IMG/VR virus record: IMGVR_UViG_3300031974_004396 | Coordinates: 1 to 58,298 of that record | Reading direction: 5' to 3' (one strand) | Source of the DNA: a virus | Length of the DNA: 58,298 nucleotides | Shown: positions 2,550-54,738 of the stretch, one piece after another | Position numbering within the stretch: position 1 is the stretch's first letter | Layout: every line of letters begins with the position of its first letter | Notes under the pieces: model-generated | What the model saw: the letters and a program-made list of their open reading frames with translations, nothing else | The model's database searches: none | What the model was told of the DNA's origin: nothing | Translations under genes and position numbers: made by a program

Positions 2550-2557
2550 TATTTATA
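2550..2557 (-). promoter_or_regulatory. T4-type late promoter TATAAATA abutting a start codon
   Basis: On the minus strand TATAAATA is followed by GTATT and then the ATG at 2544. With T4 late geometry the transcript would begin at or within a base or two of that A, giving a leaderless mRNA. It overlaps the stop codon of the upstream repeat gene. Confidence 0.5.
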
Positions 2558-3368
2558 CACTCGTGTTACTTGGATTCTTAGAGAATCTTGCAGTAGGAAC
2601 TGACTGGTGAATTTTTTCTAATGTTCCACCATCGTTTACATATACTTCATCAAGTTTTCTAAGTGTTCCACTATCATTCACAAAAACGCCTTTAACCTTT
2701 GCAACTGGCCCAACGGTTCTTGTAGTTGGGTAAGATACTTGATAGGTAAATGGTGACCTTAGTGTATATGGAATCTGATATGCAACTTGATAGGTAAACG
2801 GTGTTTGTCTATTTGCAATATACGGACTTTGTGCATTTACAGGGTTTCTATATGTAGAAGGTGACCTATGTTGATAGGTAAACGGATTCCTTGCATTTGC
2901 AATGTAAGGATATGCCTGTTGTGCAGACCTAATATTTGGTTCCTGTGCATTTGCAATGTATGGATAAGGTTGTTGAGCATTTGCAATGTACGGATAAGGT
3001 TGTTGATTGTTATACGTGAAAGGTGTTTGACCTTGTCTAGCATACGTTGCAGGTTGTCTGTTACTATAGGTAAACGGTGTCTGACCTTGACGTGCATAGG
3101 TAACAGGTTGTCTATGTTGGTACGTAAACGGTTGTCTATTATTATAAGTAAACGGTTGTCTATGTTGATAGGTGAATGGTGTTCGACCTTGTCGTGCATA
3201 GGTTACAGGTTGTCTTGCATTTGCAATGTACGGACTTTGTGCATTTGCAATGTACGGATAAGGTTGTTGTGCATTAGCAATGTACGGAGTCCTACCCTGT
3301 ATACCAATAGGTTGTTGCCCTGATGCAATGTATGGGTATGGTTGTTGTGTAGATGTTAACTCTGCCAT
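2553..3368 (-). CDS. Tyr/Pro/Gln tandem-repeat virion protein
   Basis: The 271-residue protein is mostly made of 8-10 residue units of the form [QTSR]-P-[YF]-(P)-Y-[IT]-x-x-x, such as QPYPYIANAQ, SPYIANAQ, QPFTYQHR and TPFTYARQG, filling roughly residues 8-215. A short non-repeat tail follows with two related VFVNDSGTLRKL / VYVNDGGTLEKI segments. It has no Cys and no membrane helix. A second repeat protein lies immediately upstream (3378-4595). Position in the fibre module suggests an extended surface or fibre element; this is inferred. The repeats are in frame and coding. Confidence 0.8.
   Translation of the reverse strand: MAELTSTQQPYPYIASGQQPIGIQGRTPYIANAQQPYPYIANAQSPYIANARQPVTYARQGRTPFTYQHRQPFTYNNRQPFTYQHRQPVTYARQGQTPFTYSNRQPATYARQGQTPFTYNNQQPYPYIANAQQPYPYIANAQEPNIRSAQQAYPYIANARNPFTYQHRSPSTYRNPVNAQSPYIANRQTPFTYQVAYQIPYTLRSPFTYQVSYPTTRTVGPVAKVKGVFVNDSGTLRKLDEVYVNDGGTLEKIHQSVPTARFSKNPSNTSV
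2720..3350 (-). repeat. coding tandem repeats, Y-I-A-N-A-Q / F-T-Y type
   Basis: Degenerate 24-30 base units encode the repeats of the 271-residue protein. On the plus strand they are seen as recurring tgcaatgtacgga and ggttgtctatg blocks. Unit order is shuffled rather than regular. Confidence 0.8.
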
Positions 3369-3377
3369 GTCCTAATC

Positions 3378-4595
3378 CTATAGTGGGCTTGGTGAAGAAC
3401 CATATGTTGCTGATAACGTAATTCCTGGCCCTGCATATGTTGTTATATAACTATCTGAACTACCTGATGGTGTTGCCCTAACTGTAAATGTAACGGCATT
3501 TGCACTTACGAAAGATTGATAAGGTGAATAATTGGGACTAACTTTTGCCATCCAACCAAATGTTTTACTACTACTTAGTGAATAATATGTTCCTGAATTA
3601 TACCCATCGGTAACTGGTGTAGGCCCAAATGCACCAACGTAACAGTCTCCTTGACAACTTTGATTACTTGTTACATATTTAACTTCAAACGTTGAAGCAT
3701 CATTTACTGGTGAAACATAATCTATTGAATCATTATACTGAGTTGCTGGTGCAGATGAATCACCACCTGCCCAGGCAACGTCAATTTGGTCATTTGCAGT
3801 GTCTAATGCAAAAGACATATATGCCCATGCTTCAGGGAATCCAAAAGCTTGTGCAACATCTTGGGTTGTTTGCCAAAACCCAGTTGAAGCGCTTGGGCCC
3901 CATGTTTGTTCTAGAGGATACACTGTTTTTGTTCCAGTTGCATTAAACGTATAAGGTGTCTGTGTAATATATGGGTAAGGTTGTTGGTTACTATACGTAA
4001 ATGGCGACCTACCCTGTCTTGCATAGGTAAACGGTTGTCTATGATTATAAGTAAACGGACTTTGATACGATGCAATGTACGGATACGGTTGTTGAGCGTT
4101 TGCAATATAAGGTGACTGAGCATTTGCAATATATGGACTCTGACCATTTGCAATGTATGGACTCTGTTTGTTTGCTATGTACGGATAAGGTTGTTGAGCA
4201 TTAGCAATATATGGAGTCTGATTATTTGCGATATAAGGATACGGTTGTTGTGCATTTGCAACATATGGTGTTCTTCCTTGTCTTGCATACGTGAAAGGAG
4301 TCTGTCCCTGACGTGCATACGTGAACGGAGAACGATAGTTATAGGTAAAAGGTGTTCTACCTTGGTTTTGGTATGTAAAGGGTTGCTGAGCGTTTCTTAT
4401 AAATGGTGTCTGTGCATTTACAGGACTTCTGTAAGTAAAAGGTTGTCTGTTTTGATACGTACTAGGTTGTCTTGCGTTTGCAGGAGTACGTGCAGGAGTC
4501 TGTCTGACTTCTAACGATTGAGCATTTCTTACAGATTGACCTTGGTACGGTTGTTGGAAACTCGACCCTGTGTTTATATAGATTTCATCAGCCAT
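3378..4595 (-). CDS. second Tyr/Pro/Gln repeat protein with a C-terminal globular domain
   Basis: The 405-residue protein begins MADEIYINTGSSFQQPYQGQ. Residues of about 20-210 are the same repeat family as the neighbour (YPYIANAQ, SPYIANAQ, QPFTYARQG, TPFTYNYR). Residues of about 215-405 form a different, non-repeat domain rich in Ser, Thr, Tyr and Gly with one close Cys pair (CQGDC). The repeats suggest a stalk and the C-terminal domain a tip, which would suit a receptor-binding or decoration protein; this is inference from architecture and location. It lies 9 bases upstream of the repeat-only paralogue, suggesting duplication. Confidence 0.8.
   Translation of the reverse strand: MADEIYINTGSSFQQPYQGQSVRNAQSLEVRQTPARTPANARQPSTYQNRQPFTYRSPVNAQTPFIRNAQQPFTYQNQGRTPFTYNYRSPFTYARQGQTPFTYARQGRTPYVANAQQPYPYIANNQTPYIANAQQPYPYIANKQSPYIANGQSPYIANAQSPYIANAQQPYPYIASYQSPFTYNHRQPFTYARQGRSPFTYSNQQPYPYITQTPYTFNATGTKTVYPLEQTWGPSASTGFWQTTQDVAQAFGFPEAWAYMSFALDTANDQIDVAWAGGDSSAPATQYNDSIDYVSPVNDASTFEVKYVTSNQSCQGDCYVGAFGPTPVTDGYNSGTYYSLSSSKTFGWMAKVSPNYSPYQSFVSANAVTFTVRATPSGSSDSYITTYAGPGITLSATYGSSPSPL
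3960..4541 (-). repeat. coding tandem repeats shared with the neighbouring gene
   Basis: The repeat part of the 405-residue protein uses the same units as 2720-3350, again in a shuffled order. The two arrays lie about 600 bases apart in direct orientation, so recombination between them could change repeat number. Confidence 0.75.
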
Positions 4596-28430: not shown

Positions 28431-28438
28431 TATTTATG
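28431..28438 (-). promoter_or_regulatory. late promoter CATAAATA for gp48
   Basis: The minus strand reads CATAAATA (one mismatch) 26 bases upstream of the gp48 ATG at 28404. It overlaps the start codon of gp4 on the other strand, forming a mirror-image pair with 28404-28411. Confidence 0.55.
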
Positions 28439-28882
28439 TCATACAGTGGTAAGTTCAAACCGAAGAACTATAAAAAATACAAAGGAGACCCTACTAAAAT
28501 CTTTTATCGTTCTCTATGGGAACGTAAGTTTATGGTCTACTGTGATAACAATCCTGCTATCATAGAGTGGGGAAGTGAAGAAATCATCATACCGTATCGT
28601 TCACCTATTGATAAAAGGGTGCATCGATACTTTCCTGACTTCTATATAAAGTATGTGAACACTAGGGGACAATCGATACGTGAAATTATCGAAGTTAAAC
28701 CTAAGAAACAGACACTACCACCCAAAGAACAGAAACGTAAAACTAAAAAATTTCTCAACGAGATTGCCACCTATGCAGTAAACCAAGCAAAATGGAAAGC
28801 TGCAGAAGAGTTTTGTGCAGACAGACGAATGAGTTTTAGAATATTAACGGAAGACCACTTATTACCAAACAAGAAAAAATGA
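28436..28882 (+). CDS. gp4: head completion protein gp4
   Basis: A 148-residue protein of the T4 gp4 (50/65) family. It starts MSYSGKFKPKNYKKYKGDP and carries the diagnostic YRSLWERKFMVYCDNNP, IEWGSEEIIIPYRSP and HRYFPDFYIKY segments, ending with WKAAEEFC....F.ILTEDHL. The core resembles the TnsA/PD-(D/E)XK fold (E, then D, then E-V-K in IIEVKPK). gp4 acts at the head-neck after packaging. It is one of few plus-strand genes; the HAD gene starts 4 bases before its end. Confidence 0.9.
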   Translation: MSYSGKFKPKNYKKYKGDPTKIFYRSLWERKFMVYCDNNPAIIEWGSEEIIIPYRSPIDKRVHRYFPDFYIKYVNTRGQSIREIIEVKPKKQTLPPKEQKRKTKKFLNEIATYAVNQAKWKAAEEFCADRRMSFRILTEDHLLPNKKK

Positions 28883-29475
28883 AAGCAGTAATCTTTGACT
28901 TAGACGGAGTCCTCATAGATTCCAAAGAGAACATGCGAACTGCATGGGGTATGGTAATGTTGCAGTGTAATATCAAAGTCCCTTTTGAAAAATACTTTGC
29001 AGAGATTGGTAAACCCTTTGAGGATATACTAGACACCATAGGTATCAATCATTCACACACTCTTATCAAAAGCATCTACGACCATTACTCTAAAGAGACA
29101 CTAAACAAGATTAAGTTTTATGATGGTGCATTTGATACACTAGTGGAGTTGAAAAAGAAGTATAGGACAGGTATAGTTACATCGAAGTCTGAAGATAGAA
29201 CTCATAAAATACTATTAAAACTCCCACGTTTTGATTGGGTCAGTTGTCCTCGTAAATTCAGTAGAGGTAAACCAGCACCTGACCAACTACTATATACACT
29301 TGCACACTTAAAGGTAGACCCTGCAGATGCAGTCTATGTCGGTGATATGCAATCTGATAAAGAATGTGCAGACCGTGCTGGTGTAAAATTTATACATGCA
29401 AACTATGGATACGGTGAAGTACAATGCGAACACTCTCTAAACCGACTGTCGGACTTAATCAAGTTATTGGATTAA
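28879..29475 (+). CDS. HAD-superfamily phosphatase (subclass IA)
   Basis: A 198-residue HAD hydrolase. Motif I is FDLDGVLIDS with D7 and D9; motif II is in GIVTSKSEDR; motif III is the Lys in RGKPAPDQLLY; motif IV is YVGDMQSDKECADRAG. An alpha-helical cap follows motif I, so it is not the capless KdsC type. It overlaps gp4 by 4 bases and the KdsB gene by 52 bases. Co-transcription with KdsB suggests it dephosphorylates a sugar phosphate (such as a KDO precursor), but the substrate is inferred. Confidence 0.85.
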   Translation: MKAVIFDLDGVLIDSKENMRTAWGMVMLQCNIKVPFEKYFAEIGKPFEDILDTIGINHSHTLIKSIYDHYSKETLNKIKFYDGAFDTLVELKKKYRTGIVTSKSEDRTHKILLKLPRFDWVSCPRKFSRGKPAPDQLLYTLAHLKVDPADAVYVGDMQSDKECADRAGVKFIHANYGYGEVQCEHSLNRLSDLIKLLD

Positions 29476-30194
29476 TTCCTGCACGTTGGAAGTCAACTCG
29501 ATTCGAGGGTAAACCTCTCGAACTTATAAATGGTATCCCTATGATTCATAGGGTTTATAATCAATGCATCCAAGCAGAGTCCTTAGATAGAGTTGTGGTT
29601 CTTACAGACGATGAACGAATTAATCAGTACTGTGCATTAAATGAAATTCCATGTGTTGTGGTGGACGAACCATGTCACACTGGAACAGACCGATGTGCAA
29701 AAGCAATTGAGATACTTGATGGGGATTACTTCGTAAACATTCAAGGTGACGAACCTGTCATCGACCCTTACACTATTGACACTTTGGTACGTACTTTTAC
29801 GGAGTCTCCGAATACTTGCGTAGGGAATGCGTATGTGCGTATTACTGATTACTTTAAAATAGAAGATAGAAATGTGGTTAAGGTAGTTTGCGATGATAGT
29901 AGACAGGCAATGTTTTACTCTAGACTACCTATCCCCTATCCAAAGTGTGGTGATACAGATGTGGTTGACTATTATCAACAACTAGGATTGTATGTGTTCA
30001 CAAGAGAGGGGTTAGAACTCTTCTCTAGGTTAGAACAAAAACCACTAGAACAAGCAGAACAAGTTGAGATGTTACGATACTTGGAACATGGATACGATGT
30101 GCAAATGGTTGAAGTGAAAGATGTAGGACTGTCCGTAGACACACCTGAAGACTTAAAGAAAGTTGAAGAGTATCTTAGACTATTATGTTGCTAA
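29424..30194 (+). CDS. kdsB: 3-deoxy-manno-octulosonate cytidylyltransferase (CMP-KDO synthetase)
   Basis: A 256-residue protein with all KdsB landmarks: IPARWKSTRFEGKPL (residues 18-32), VVVLTDDERI, HTGTDRCAKA, NIQGDEPVIDP, FYSRLPIPYP and the C-terminal EQVEMLRYLEHGY...SVDTPEDL. It activates KDO with CTP for lipopolysaccharide core synthesis. The ATG at 29424 lies within the end of the HAD gene; no later start fits. A complete biosynthetic nucleotidyltransferase next to a head gene suggests the phage alters host LPS or decorates itself with a KDO-like sugar (inference). It ends 11 bases inside the convergent tape-measure gene. Confidence 0.9.
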   Translation: MRTLSKPTVGLNQVIGLIPARWKSTRFEGKPLELINGIPMIHRVYNQCIQAESLDRVVVLTDDERINQYCALNEIPCVVVDEPCHTGTDRCAKAIEILDGDYFVNIQGDEPVIDPYTIDTLVRTFTESPNTCVGNAYVRITDYFKIEDRNVVKVVCDDSRQAMFYSRLPIPYPKCGDTDVVDYYQQLGLYVFTREGLELFSRLEQKPLEQAEQVEMLRYLEHGYDVQMVEVKDVGLSVDTPEDLKKVEEYLRLLCC

Positions 30195-32288
30195 TGCAGA
30201 TGTACGACCTATTGATGGGTCTGTGTTTCTTGCAGAAAGTTGACTTGTCACTGTAGTTTGACTGTTCGTTACATTTTGTTGTGTCACTGCAGTCGTAGAC
30301 ATAACAGAATTACCACCCTGTGATGCTTTATCTCCTTCTGCAACATCTGTAGTTGCACCTGCAACTGCATCACCATCTATTTGTAATGATGAAACTGCAT
30401 TGTCAATCAATGCTTGTGAGTCACCCTCACTTCCTTGTATTAATTCTGCACCTTCGGTTGCAAGTTTGTCACCAACCTTACCACCCATGATTCCACCAGC
30501 AACTGCACCCACAAGACCACCGATGAATGTACCAACTATAGGAACTACAGAACCTATCGCTGCACCTGCAGCTGCACCTGCAGCAGCACCACCAAATGAA
30601 CCTGCACCTTTACCTACTGAACCTGCAAGGTTTGCCTTGAATGCTTCTTGAAGTTTTGCAAATTCCTCTTCTGTGTATGCACGTTCTTTACCTGTTTCTT
30701 CATCAATCTTTTTAAGTTCACCTGCCTCATATGCTTTTGTGAGGTCTTCCATCTTGTCGAACTGTTGGAATGCATCAAATCCTGATTCTGCAACTGCACC
30801 GATAACTGGTAACTTTTTAACTAACCCTTTTGCAAAACCTTTAACTCCACTGAAGAATCCAGTAGATTTTTTTGCAACCTCTTCGACAACTTCATCTGCT
30901 TCTTTAACTACAGTTTTTGCAACATCGTCTGCAGCAGAAGTAGGTTTAGGTGGAGTACCCTGTTGTCTGAACTTCTCCGCCATAGGGTCAACTTTACCTA
31001 GTTTAGGAGTTGTTGGTTTCGCCTTCGATGGGTCAACTGGTGTCTTTGGTGTTGGTTTAGGTGTTGGTTTAGGTGGTGTCTTTGGTGCTGGAGGCACTTT
31101 CTTAGGGAATAAGTTTTTGAAAAACTTCATTGCATCATCTAATGCACTTCCTATTTTCTCAAAACCTTTTTTGATTAATGCTGTTGCATCATCTAATGCT
31201 TGACCAATACCACTAACTGCACGTTTTACAACTTCACCTGCACCTGCAAATGATAGGTTTGATAATGCTACACCAAGTGCTATAGGAATGGAGAGAATTA
31301 TTGCAGCAACTGCTACAAAACCTAAAAGTAATAATGAGAATCCTGCAGCAATCTTTTTAAGAGTACCGAAAATCCCTGATAATTTTCCAGTTACCTTTTC
31401 TTGTTCTTTAAGGTGTTTTTTATCACCCTTCTCTCTACCCTTAAGAAGTTTATCACTAATTTTGTTTGATTTCTCTTGATTATCTTCAGTCTCTTCACCT
31501 ACACCCATGAGTTTTGTAACGAGATTGTTACCACCCTCTCTGATTGCATTGAACCCTGACTTTACACCGTTTGCAAGTTGACCAACTGCATTCCATTTCT
31601 TAACCATCATATCAAGAGGTGCAGAGATATCAACCAGTCCACCAGTAAGCTCCTTTAATCCATCTGAGAAATTATCAAACCCTTCTGTTTTAGATGCCTT
31701 TTCTAATTTTGCAGTTGCATTGGAACGTACTCGTTCTTCTTCTTTTGAAAGTTTTTCGATATCATCATTGAAAGTATCTTTAATCTTTTGTTCACGTTCT
31801 TCGACATCTTTATTTCTGTCTGATAATTCTTTTGATATCCTAGTTCTTTCTTCTAGAATTTTTGCCTGAGACATGAATTTACCTTTTTCGTCTCTTGCAC
31901 CATCAACAGAAAGTTTTCGAAGTTGTGCTTCTAGTTTTAGTCTATCTTCTTGTGCAGAAATAAGTTCTGCATCTTTTTTTCTTGCAACTTCTAATGCTCT
32001 TCTCTGTTCTTCATAAACAGTTTTCAAATCCTCTGAAACTTTTTTCAGTTCAGGGTCATTTGCAAGTTCTCTTTGAACCTTTAGTAATTTTCTAGATGCT
32101 AATGCACCTGAGAAAGTGTCTTTAGATGACTTCCTTAAATTTGCAGCAGTCTCTGCGACTTCCACATTAACGTTTTTAATTTCTTCAATAACCTTTTGGA
32201 ATGTAGGTCTTAATTGAGATGCAGTTTCATTTACACTCTCAATTTTTTTCTGTACTTCCTGATTACGTTTTTCGAAATCATCTGCCAT
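30183..32288 (-). CDS. tail tape-measure protein
   Basis: A 701-residue protein. Residues 1-200 are long Lys/Glu coiled coils (IKNVNVEVAETAANLRKSSK, EEREQKIKD). Two hydrophobic stretches follow near residues 310-345 (FSLLLLGFVAVAAIILSIPI). A Pro/Lys linker (PKTPPKPTPKPTPKTP) is at about 395-415, and a Gly/Ala-rich membrane-like segment near 560-610 (GAAAGAAAGAAIGSVVPIVG). This architecture, and location three genes after the frameshifted tail chaperone, identifies the tape measure. At about 1.5 Angstrom per residue the tail would be about 105 nm (rule of thumb). It converges with kdsB, overlapping by 12 bases. Confidence 0.8.
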   Translation of the reverse strand: MADDFEKRNQEVQKKIESVNETASQLRPTFQKVIEEIKNVNVEVAETAANLRKSSKDTFSGALASRKLLKVQRELANDPELKKVSEDLKTVYEEQRRALEVARKKDAELISAQEDRLKLEAQLRKLSVDGARDEKGKFMSQAKILEERTRISKELSDRNKDVEEREQKIKDTFNDDIEKLSKEEERVRSNATAKLEKASKTEGFDNFSDGLKELTGGLVDISAPLDMMVKKWNAVGQLANGVKSGFNAIREGGNNLVTKLMGVGEETEDNQEKSNKISDKLLKGREKGDKKHLKEQEKVTGKLSGIFGTLKKIAAGFSLLLLGFVAVAAIILSIPIALGVALSNLSFAGAGEVVKRAVSGIGQALDDATALIKKGFEKIGSALDDAMKFFKNLFPKKVPPAPKTPPKPTPKPTPKTPVDPSKAKPTTPKLGKVDPMAEKFRQQGTPPKPTSAADDVAKTVVKEADEVVEEVAKKSTGFFSGVKGFAKGLVKKLPVIGAVAESGFDAFQQFDKMEDLTKAYEAGELKKIDEETGKERAYTEEEFAKLQEAFKANLAGSVGKGAGSFGGAAAGAAAGAAIGSVVPIVGTFIGGLVGAVAGGIMGGKVGDKLATEGAELIQGSEGDSQALIDNAVSSLQIDGDAVAGATTDVAEGDKASQGGNSVMSTTAVTQQNVTNSQTTVTSQLSARNTDPSIGRTSALAT

Positions 32289-32301
32289 GACTTATATCTT
32301 C

Positions 32302-32694
32302 CTATTGTTTTCCGAATGCTTTACCAGCTTCTGCAATACCAAATGAACCTAAGGTTACTACTACGAATGAAGTGTAAATAGTGTCGGATATGGTTATATC
32401 TTGTCCCCAAAATCCTGTCACTAAATCCACAATACCGAATGCAAGCATCATTAAAAAAGATGCGAAACCAATGATTGATTTCTCATTGATATCGTTCTCA
32501 TCTCTAAACAATGCACCAAACGAAAACTTCGTTTGAGGTTTTGCAGCCATAGTTGCAATCTTCAGTTCCTTTGACATTTTTTCCATCTCTTTAATCTTGT
32601 CGTTTGCCTCATCTAGTTTTAACACTAGATTGGTGTACTTATCAAGATCAATCTCGACTTCATTTCTGCCTGTGTCTACTGTTTCTGTTGTCAT
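32302..32694 (-). CDS. coiled-coil membrane protein with two helices
   Basis: A 130-residue protein. Residues 15-50 form a short coiled coil (VLKLDEANDKIKEMEKMSKE). Two membrane helices follow: SIIGFASFLMMLAFGIVDLV and TIYTSFVVVTLGSFGIAEAG. A good AGAGGAC site precedes the ATG. It sits between the tail chaperone and the tape measure, which is unusual for a membrane protein. It could be a holin, or a protein that meets the membrane with the tape measure during DNA entry; neither can be told from sequence. Confidence 0.75.
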   Translation of the reverse strand: MTTETVDTGRNEVEIDLDKYTNLVLKLDEANDKIKEMEKMSKELKIATMAAKPQTKFSFGALFRDENDINEKSIIGFASFLMMLAFGIVDLVTGFWGQDITISDTIYTSFVVVTLGSFGIAEAGKAFGKQ

Positions 32695-32734: not shown

Positions 32735-33621
32735 TTATCTTCTTCGTTTCTCCTGTCTCATCTTTTCTTCTTCAAGATAATTGAGGAGAAGTTTAACATA
32801 TACTTCTCTTTCCCACGGCATCATTTCATCTAGTTCAGTTAATGAATACTTGTGGTGTTGCATTAACTGAAAGTTTGTGTTATAGTAGTTAACTAAATTC
32901 TCATGAGAAAGAGCTATTAAAAAAAATTAGATAACCCTTTCAATACTGTGTTGTTAACTACACCACAAGAGTCACACTTGTAACTCACTTCCTTAGATAC
33001 TGATGGGATTGATTCGTAGAATTCATTCAATGATTCTAACTGGTCTAGTGTTAGACTCTCTATGAATTCAACTAACTCTGAATCCGAAATATCATCAGCA
33101 TAATAAATGTCTTCTCCATCAAAGATTGTTTCGATACCAAATTTGAGAAGTTCTATAATCTTATCTCCCTCATCCTTAATACCATCAACCTTTGCAAGTT
33201 GTTTAGTAGTAGGATAACGAAGTGTAACACCTGTCCCTTCACTAATCATATGTTTACTATCGACTTCTTTATTTTGTACAATCTCAACTTCAGTAAGATT
33301 CACATTTGTTCTTCCTGAACCATCACAATCAGGTTCTTGGCAGAACAGTGCAACTTCAACTGATTCACCAACTGACTTTGCACGTATGTTTAGAAACAAA
33401 TATTCTAAATCATAAATGGGAAGTTTCTCTGCATCCACTTCACCATCTGTAACTGCATTTATCAAATTTTTAACTGCATCGAGAATCTCTTCGTTATCTG
33501 TACTCTCTTTTGCAATTATCAGATACTTCTGTTCTTTTACAAGAAACGGTCTGAAATTTACAGTTGTTCCATCACTTAATTTGCACTTAAATTTAGGTGC
33601 CTTTTGGATTGGTAATCCCAT
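32735..33621 (-). CDS. tail assembly chaperone, -1 frameshift product (gp26 fused to a downstream frame)
   Basis: Downstream of the gp26 stop there is a 61-codon frame without a usable start: LIALSHENLVNYYNTNFQLM...PWEREVYVKLLLNYLEEEKM...RRR, ending at 32735. It is in the -1 frame relative to gp26. The gp26 end reads AAT TTT TTT TAA, so a perfect U UUU UUU slippery heptamer (minus strand 926-920 of the 32 kb block) lies just before the stop. A -1 slip gives a 295-residue fusion. The 'PWERE.Y...L' helix is typical of frameshift extensions of phage tail chaperones. The tape measure follows, as in the lambda G/GT arrangement. Confidence 0.75.
32917..33621 (-). CDS. gp26: T4 gp26-family tail/baseplate protein, short form of the chaperone
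   Basis: A 234-residue protein starting MGLPIQKAPKFKCKLSDGTT. FRPFLVKEQKYLIIAKES and LPIYDLEYLFLNIRAKSVGE are the T4 gp26 (T4_baseplate, PF12322) hallmarks. Two Cys pairs, CQEPDC and CDSC near the C-terminus, could bind zinc. It ends GLSNFF directly on the slippery run. In T4 gp26 was assigned to the baseplate hub, but its place before the tape measure and the frameshift suggest a chaperone role analogous to lambda gpG. Confidence 0.85.
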   Translation of the reverse strand: MGLPIQKAPKFKCKLSDGTTVNFRPFLVKEQKYLIIAKESTDNEEILDAVKNLINAVTDGEVDAEKLPIYDLEYLFLNIRAKSVGESVEVALFCQEPDCDGSGRTNVNLTEVEIVQNKEVDSKHMISEGTGVTLRYPTTKQLAKVDGIKDEGDKIIELLKFGIETIFDGEDIYYADDISDSELVEFIESLTLDQLESLNEFYESIPSVSKEVSYKCDSCGVVNNTVLKGLSNFF

Positions 33622-52635: not shown

Positions 52636-52968
52636 TTAATTCTTATGTAGTTTAACAAAATATTCTGCATCAACAAGTACTAAAGGTTTGGTACGATTAC
52701 GTTTGATAACTACAAGAGGTTCATACCCTTTGCAATTTTCAGTTGCTTGTTCGTATGCTTTCCAAACATTTACTGCTTCTTGATTCTTACATTCTACACT
52801 ATAGGGGAAGATTTGTCTAGTCTGTTTTCCCATAATGATGTCCTCACCTTGAGAACCCATTGGACGTGACTCTATATCTTCTTCGTCTGCACCTAGTGTT
52901 TCAACTAAAAGACTCGCAAACCATTGTTGTAGTTTTCGTCCCTTAGCTTTCGCTGAACTTGTTTTCAT
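52636..52968 (-). CDS. PD-(D/E)XK endonuclease, resolvase-like
   Basis: A 110-residue protein. RPMGSQGEDIIMG (E42/D43) and FPYSVECKNQEAVNVWKAYE (E59-x-K61) form the nuclease core. Size and pattern resemble small Holliday-junction resolvases or VRR-type nucleases. The basic N-terminus KAKGRKLQQWFASLL fits DNA binding. It overlaps the carbamoyltransferase C-part gene by 26 bases. Confidence 0.75.
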   Translation of the reverse strand: MKTSSAKAKGRKLQQWFASLLVETLGADEEDIESRPMGSQGEDIIMGKQTRQIFPYSVECKNQEAVNVWKAYEQATENCKGYEPLVVIKRNRTKPLVLVDAEYFVKLHKN

Positions 52969-53578
52969 AATCTTGAGGGTTATCTGATTTTTGTCTTAGA
53001 CATTCGTAAGGAATGTAGAGGTCACCTTCCTCTTCAGGAATGTAAAGGTGATTAATCATTGAACGGTTACAAGTGTCAATTGCATCGTAGACACTCTCCA
53101 CTAAACTTTCTCCACCCAAGTTAAACGAGGTGTTGAAAATAATAGGAGTCCCAGTTCTTTCTCCAAACTTTTTAATCAGATTGTAGTAGACTGGATTGCC
53201 TTCTTCGGTTACGGTTTGAATTCGACACGTACCGTCTGCATGAACGAGAGAAGGAATCTCTTCGTATGCTTTGTCTTTAGATTGAATTGCAAAAGACATG
53301 TAAGGTGAACCGTGTTTTTCTAATTGCAACATTTCAAAGTATTCACTTGCATGTTCTTTAAGAACACTACATGCAAAAGGTCTGTAGTCTTCTCTCTGTT
53401 TGACTGTGTTGACAATTTGTTTTGCTTCAGGATGACGTGGGTCAAACAAGATGGAACGATTTCCTAATGCACGTGGGCCCCATTCAGACTGACCTTGATA
53501 GATTGCAACGATTTGTTGGTCATCAATGAGTTGGTCTAAGACCTCATCCATATCTCTAATTATATTCGTTACAATCAT
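52943..53578 (-). CDS. carbamoyltransferase, C-terminal part
   Basis: A 211-residue protein equal to the C-terminal (Carbam_trans_C) domain of NodU/CmcH/TobZ enzymes: GQSEWGPRALGNRSILFDPR, YRPFACSVLKEHA, HADGTCRIQTVTEE and IIFNTSFNLGGESLVESVYD. In most relatives it is fused to the N-part. Here it starts on ATGA shared with the stop of the N-part, so both chains are likely made together and form one enzyme. Confidence 0.85.
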   Translation of the reverse strand: MIVTNIIRDMDEVLDQLIDDQQIVAIYQGQSEWGPRALGNRSILFDPRHPEAKQIVNTVKQREDYRPFACSVLKEHASEYFEMLQLEKHGSPYMSFAIQSKDKAYEEIPSLVHADGTCRIQTVTEEGNPVYYNLIKKFGERTGTPIIFNTSFNLGGESLVESVYDAIDTCNRSMINHLYIPEEEGDLYIPYECLRQKSDNPQDYENKFSES

Positions 53579-54738
53579 TCTTCTTCTCCTTTATCTTCTA
53601 AGTGTCTTGCAAGATTTAATGCAACTCCAACTGCAGTTCCACCATCGTGTGCAATAGGGTCAACAAAGAATTCTATATCAGGGAATCTTTGCATGTACTT
53701 ATAATTGTTGGTACAGTTCAACGAGTAACCGCCTGAGAGGACGATTTTCTTAAGGTCAGGGTTTAGGTCTAATGCACGTTGAATAATTGCACAGGAGTGT
53801 TCTAGGGACTCCAGTTCACATTGTTGTGATACTGTATGTCTAGAAAACACATTAGGTGTAACAGGTTGAGGTGCATAAGATGCCATACCCATAACCTTAC
53901 CTGCAGCACGACCTTTTGTATCACATCCTAATGCATAGGACAGATTACTAAAGTTCATACCACATGAGGGTAGGGAAGTGAACACTGTTGGTACACCTTC
54001 AATCTCAACTTCTAAATCGTCAGGACAATCCAAACAGTTTTCTAACATGTTAACAAACCCTTCACCTTTCCAATCATTTAATCCTCTGTGATTAGAAAGT
54101 CTTTGCCATTGCAACTTAGGTTCTGTGTGTTTAGAATCGATGCGATAGATGGATTCGATTTCTTGATAATTAGGATAACGTTCATAGTGTCTCGTGGCAC
54201 CACCACCGTCCCATGCGATTGCAATCACTGGTTCATCGTCTGCATACCAAGGTGAGAAATAATATCCACACTCTGCATGATACAAATGATGTTCAGTATC
54301 AAAATGATATTTGTCCACTCCAAGTTGTTGTGCCATCTTGTCATGGATAATGTTATCACCGTCTAGTACTTCTTCCTTAATCGTAATACGTGGTTTTGCA
54401 CCTTTAACATTGAACTCTTCCATGATAAGTTCAAGACGACTACGAGTTACTTGTTCGTGTGCAAAGGCATTTGCAATATCGATTTGTAGTCTACGGTCTT
54501 GTTTAACTTCTTCAGAGAAACCTAAGACAAGAACTCTACGGTCAAAAGATGCAAAGGCAAGGTGTTCAGGTTGTTCGATACCACGTTGAACAATGGTTAA
54601 GAGTTCTGCTTCACCCTCTGAAGGTGACCAATACTTGTCACGTCTGTGTCTTTCTTCTTCCCACACATTCGTAATCTCACCGTCTTTAAAGGTGACAATC
54701 GAAGTATCGTGTGAAGAATTAATCGCAAGAATTTCCAT
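53575..54738 (-). CDS. carbamoyltransferase, N-terminal (Kae1-like) part
   Basis: A 387-residue protein. MEILAINSSHDTSIVTFKDG, HHLYHAECGYYFSPWYADDE with the metal-binding His pair, IAWDGGGATRHYER, KIVLSGGYSLNCTNNYKYMQ and PIAHDGGTAVGVALNLARHL are the N-domain marks of O-carbamoyltransferases. Carbamoyl phosphate is converted to carbamoyl-adenylate here and then passed to a hydroxyl of a sugar or other molecule. With the C-part it makes 598 residues, the normal full length. Substrate unknown; glycan decoration is likely. Confidence 0.87.
   Translation of the reverse strand: MEILAINSSHDTSIVTFKDGEITNVWEEERHRRDKYWSPSEGEAELLTIVQRGIEQPEHLAFASFDRRVLVLGFSEEVKQDRRLQIDIANAFAHEQVTRSRLELIMEEFNVKGAKPRITIKEEVLDGDNIIHDKMAQQLGVDKYHFDTEHHLYHAECGYYFSPWYADDEPVIAIAWDGGGATRHYERYPNYQEIESIYRIDSKHTEPKLQWQRLSNHRGLNDWKGEGFVNMLENCLDCPDDLEVEIEGVPTVFTSLPSCGMNFSNLSYALGCDTKGRAAGKVMGMASYAPQPVTPNVFSRHTVSQQCELESLEHSCAIIQRALDLNPDLKKIVLSGGYSLNCTNNYKYMQRFPDIEFFVDPIAHDGGTAVGVALNLARHLEDKGEEE

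Follow-up and report, generated by a model that had tools for sequence, protein, structure and literature searches.

The published proposal that T4-like phages have a frameshifted gp26 chaperone dates from 2022, and the locus described here is not new in kind. In that proposal by Vladimirov and colleagues, gp26 and gp51 reportedly function as chaperones; gp26 is said to be the short form, -1 slippage on poly-T is said to give a long form in groups other than that of T4, and gp51 is said to correspond to the C-terminal part. Two papers credit the tail chaperone (TAC) genes and poly-T slip sites of T4-like phages to this work (PMC10885494, PMC12846349). In these papers, TAC-N genes of T4-like phages are described as having poly-T slip signals (PMC12846349), and some T4-like phages as having, in place of frameshifting, a short gene and a separate longer fusion gene (PMC10885494). 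An older review describes the tail chaperone frameshift as widely conserved except in T4 (PMC5009743). The tail chaperones of Vandenendeviridae and Andersonviridae (PMC12846349) resemble the present locus in their -1 extension and poly-T slip motif (GTTTTT in theirs), but belong to other phage families. Compared with gpG/gpGT of lambda, the present system involves a different protein family, has its zero-frame stop abutting the slip site or within a few codons of it, and in our case includes one extra gene before the tape measure gene.

We analyzed a window of 58,298 nucleotides, comprising positions 1 to 58,298 of IMG/VR virus record IMGVR_UViG_3300031974_004396. The window differs from the T4-like TAC set of Vladimirov 2022 in coming from an uncultured marine lineage, and a 9.2-kb tail-gene stretch of it has no nucleotide match by megablast against phage records. 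Its assignment as a new member of the known frameshifted T4-like tail chaperones is well supported by sequence comparison. We consider it very likely that gp26 is a tail assembly chaperone and that -1 slippage on U UUU UUU yields a minority long form with a 61-codon extension. The first-pass annotation had proposed a hidden -1 extension, reached when ribosomes slip at the end of gp26, and comparison with relatives strongly supports this proposal. The same annotation held that gp26 is a chaperone rather than only a hub protein; this is also supported, and it is from the protein family, the anatomy of the locus and the literature that we infer the function.

Anatomy of the gp26 locus

The gp26 reading frame extends from 33621 to 32917 on the minus strand and encodes 234 aa. 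Its 3' end reads TCT AAT TTT TTT TAA. A -1 step at the in-phase heptamer T TTT TTT (32926..32920) opens 61 codons (32920..32738), which are followed by a stop at 32737..32735 and translate as LIALSHENLVNYYNTNFQLMQHHKYSLTELDEMMPWEREVYVKLLLNYLEEEKMRQEKRRR. The coordinates and frames of the initial description, in which gp26 ended on U UUU UUU UAA ahead of 61 codons in the -1 frame, hold. Its count of seven U's fits the in-phase heptamer, while the actual run is of eight T's (32926..32919). The T-run was also considered as a transcription terminator and rejected, as there is no terminator-like hairpin. The features of the locus are as follows:

32917..33621, minus strand: gp26 short form (TAC-N), 234 aa; PF12322, phrog_150, AlphaFold2 model
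32935..32940, minus strand: SD-like AAAGGG, candidate stimulator; GG conserved, anti-SD pairing compared with a synonymous null
32920..32926, minus strand: slippery heptamer T TTT TTT, with P/A-site codons TTT TTT; sequence, and U UUU UUN in 148/148 distinct sequences
32917..32919, minus strand: zero-frame stop TAA, abutting the heptamer; sequence
32735..32920, minus strand: -1 frame extension (TAC-C or 'gp51' domain), 61 codons and stop; phrog_634, relatives, dN/dS
32861..32863, minus strand: in-frame ATG, codon 20 of the extension, from which a separate gp51 is annotated in some relatives, probably not the main start; SD core 3/96, selection upstream
32302..32694, minus strand: 130-codon gene between the chaperone and tape measure genes, with a hydrophobic C-terminal half; no PHROG match, partial immuto match
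30183..32288, minus strand: probable tape measure protein, 701 aa; position, length, glycine-zipper region, weak phrog_23574 match

The short form is homologous to the T4 gp26 family along the whole protein, with matches to PF12322 T4_baseplate (5.7e-58) and phrog_150 (baseplate hub; 1.1e-59). The extension matches phrog_634, the gp51 family annotated as 'baseplate hub assembly catalyst' (6.9e-26), and also weakly matches the end of phrog_150 (0.00032). An AlphaFold2 model of gp26 has a confident fold (mean pLDDT 90.9). Searches of this fold against the PDB returned no match below E 0.001, including no solved tail chaperone, and sequence searches of solved structures gave no meaningful match. 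The best fold matches in BFVD are other gp26-type baseplate proteins.

In the mechanism that we infer, which includes the slippage itself, its rate and the role of the SD-like element, most ribosomes would terminate at the TAA that follows the T-run, producing the short form TAC-N of 234 aa. A minority would slip by -1 on U UUU UUU, perhaps aided by pairing with the upstream AAAGGG, and would read 61 more codons to give a long form, TAC-NC, of 295 aa. If the system works like lambda gpG/gpGT, the N part common to both forms would coat the tape measure protein and the extension would recruit tail-tube subunits.

Many tailed phages classically make the two forms of their tail chaperone by -1 slippage just before the tape measure gene. 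In the window, the probable tape measure gene is not immediately next: one 130-codon gene (32302..32694) separates it from gp26 and the extension, and it is itself placed by position and a weak match to tape measure family phrog_23574 (5.4e-05). The 701-codon product has no tblastn match against phage records. The intervening gene encodes two hydrophobic stretches and matches nothing in PHROG, nor any Pfam family above the cut-off; its C-terminal half matches hypothetical proteins of Flavobacterium phage immuto at 44%.

Other parts of the window were also annotated. Three genes on the plus strand at 28436..30194, flanked by the genes for the tape measure and the tail tube cap, encode a protein with a TnsA-N-like nuclease fold that is probably gp4 (head completion), a HAD phosphatase, and a cytidylyltransferase (PF02348) that may be of KdsB type. 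On the minus strand, a carbamoyltransferase is split into N- and C-terminal genes (PF02543, PF16861) with a 4-base overlap at 52943..54738. Two proteins of short repeats, for example TPFTYxxRQPFTY, are encoded at 2553..4595 on the same strand; one was tested and has no Pfam match.

Conservation and route of translation

The slip site, the frame and the spacing are conserved, and selection on -1 frame coding acts before any common start. All 11 IMG/VR loci at 61-99% identity keep the run of seven T's with the stop and the -1 frame. The loci of four cyanophages and of Methylophilales phage Melnitz, taken from five phage records, likewise have the -1 frame, with T TTT TTC or T TTT TTT. A profile search with gp26 provided 80 further loci, which were added to these loci and the window. 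Loci running off their contig were left out, giving 96 assessable loci that were selected on gp26 or taken from phage records. The extension is in the -1 frame and open across the end of gp26 in all 96. In a second search selected on the extension, it likewise overlaps gp26 in the -1 frame in 80/80 loci. Neither set contains a locus in which the domain forms a gene of its own, independently started and lacking a slippery run, the case that the first-pass annotation had named as contrary to its reading.

The slip site was compared in 148 distinct sequences, made up of 87 that include the window and 61 more. Every one has an in-phase U UUU UUC, U UUU UUU or U UUU UUA at the end of gp26, so the alignment of relatives that had been suggested finds both U UUU UUN (148/148) and the -1 frame (96/96 and 80/80) kept. 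The zero-frame codons, a T-ending codon followed by TTT, are invariant, whereas codon usage predicts about 54 and about 57 of 87. Given the codon usage of each gene, the chance of such codon choice is about 10^-37, a figure that is overstated as related loci are taken as independent. These comparisons show that the putative tail chaperone frameshift arrangement is universal among the sampled members of a large marine T4-like branch.

Two further origins of the T-run were weighed against this conservation. Runs of T are prone to error and frequent in this AT-rich genome, with 17 runs of at least 7 on both strands together in 58 kb, and the run could be read as a sequencing error, a decayed gp26 end or part of a terminator, with the extension as a relic. 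This reading is refuted by the same arrangement recurring in 148 distinct sequences, and with the extension under strong purifying selection its probability is practically nil. Alternatively, the long form might come from ordinary translation of an mRNA into which RNA polymerase had inserted an extra U at the T-run; the window has eight T's, and runs of about nine are known to slip (PMC5009743). We regard such transcriptional slippage as very unlikely because 52/87 loci have only six T's; these, and 7/87 with seven, keep the same frame and a ribosomal-type heptamer.

Ribosomes could either enter the extension from gp26 or initiate within it. The downstream domain could be a separate small gene, gp51, with its own ATG at extension codon 20 and re-initiation after the gp26 stop. 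Several of the five phage records, cyanophages among them, annotate it in this way, and those of S-RSM4 and Syn33 start a separate 'gp51' at the internal ATG. In addition, the ATG position is M in 79/87 loci. Against independent initiation, this position is I or L in 6 loci, and the SD core occurs at just 3/96 comparable internal ATGs. All loci examined, including the separately annotated cyanophage 'gp51' genes, have the slippery heptamer and an open -1 frame that overlaps gp26. The 19 codons ahead of the ATG are conserved as -1 frame protein, and the distance from the slip site to the usual ATG position is exactly 19 codons in 85/85 alignable loci, with no length change. On this evidence, a separate gp51 is highly unlikely.

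The pattern of substitution in these 19 codons is that of a protein. In 41 disjoint pairs, dN/dS is 0.13 in the -1 frame and 1.3 and 2.4 in the other two. Substitutions are richest at the third codon position (159, 90 and 304 across the three positions), and pN/pS is 0.24 compared with a column-shuffled mean of 0.81 and minimum of 0.43. Because the codons before the ATG evolve as protein in the -1 frame, the comparison argues strongly that the extension is reached by translation from gp26, with no independent initiation at the ATG. The ATG at codon 20 is probably not the main start. The earlier statement that the extension lacks a usable start was too strong, given this ATG.

Candidate stimulators of slippage

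Some 10 nt 5' of the heptamer, an SD-like AGG or AAGG is formed by a Gly codon that mostly follows GAG, GAA, AAA or CAA. The G at -11 and the G at -10 are each present in 86/87 loci. In tests that take related loci as independent, and so overstate the strength of the signal, the best anti-SD pairing averages -5.87 kcal/mol compared with -4.86 (sd of mean 0.15) after synonymous recoding, and two groups of codons exceed expectation at the site, namely G-ending K/E/Q codons (40 against an expected 21.5) and GGA/GGG glycine codons (47 against an expected 31.4). The E. coli dnaX cassette has an SD-like element at the same distance of about 10 nt upstream of its slippery heptamer. It differs in its A AAA AAG heptamer and in the strong stem-loop that lies downstream, whereas the gp26 loci have no conserved structure.

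Downstream RNA structure was considered as a stimulator and rejected, as RNAalifold finds no common structure 3' of the slip site in 85 loci and the window's own downstream fold is not stable (z = 0.16). Individual downstream hairpins occur in 39/85 loci at varied spacing, with a mean z of -1.4 compared with -0.5 in a control stretch. We tentatively suggest, at somewhat less than even confidence, that in the T4-like tail chaperones it is the internal SD-like element, rather than RNA structure 3' of the site, that acts as conserved stimulator of -1 slippage and determines the ratio of short to long forms across the group.

T4 and other T4-like phages

The arrangement extends to more distant T4-like phages. 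A U UUU UU heptamer with a -1 extension is found in P-SSM2, Stenotrophomonas phages DLP_6 and Ps15, Vibrio phage Va3, Rhizobium phage AF3 and Aeromonas phage 65.2. The match to the extension is weak in Aeromonas 65.2 (2e-07) and not significant in Stenotrophomonas Ps15 (0.28). The candidate heptamer of Rhizobium phage AF3 (L102:3650-3870) is T TTT TTG. Among Ackermannviridae, Serratia phage 3M and Salmonella phage Se_AO1 have a weakly matched -1 extension without a six-T run, and the slip site of their gp26 may differ. The gp26 ends of this family (L104, L106) have a PWHLDL motif in the -1 extension, and GGTTTTC or GATTTTC in place of the six-T heptamer.

In T4 itself (Straboviridae), genes 26 and 51 lie on opposite strands. 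T4 gp26 is homologous to the short form of the window, and T4 gp51 resembles the short form together with the extension. Both proteins match the gp26 profile, with gp51 aligning along its first ~170 residues; the extension profile is matched by gp51 alone, at residues 210-243. The two T4 proteins also match each other in a one-against-one comparison (E 2e-06). As judged from these matches, T4 gp51 looks like a paralogue of gp26 to which the extension is joined, and T4 appears to encode the short form and the long form separately. It would differ from the window in this respect, as slippage is not needed when the two forms are separate genes.

In many database entries of the marine T4-like branch, the protein called 'gp51' is probably one part of a longer product, wrongly annotated as a gene of its own. 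Through the SD-like element, the way in which the ratio of short to long forms may be set is open to simple tests. The putative frameshift, formerly described as widely conserved with T4 excepted (PMC5009743), is universal among the sampled members of this branch, and the result fits the view that two genes replaced slippage in T4.
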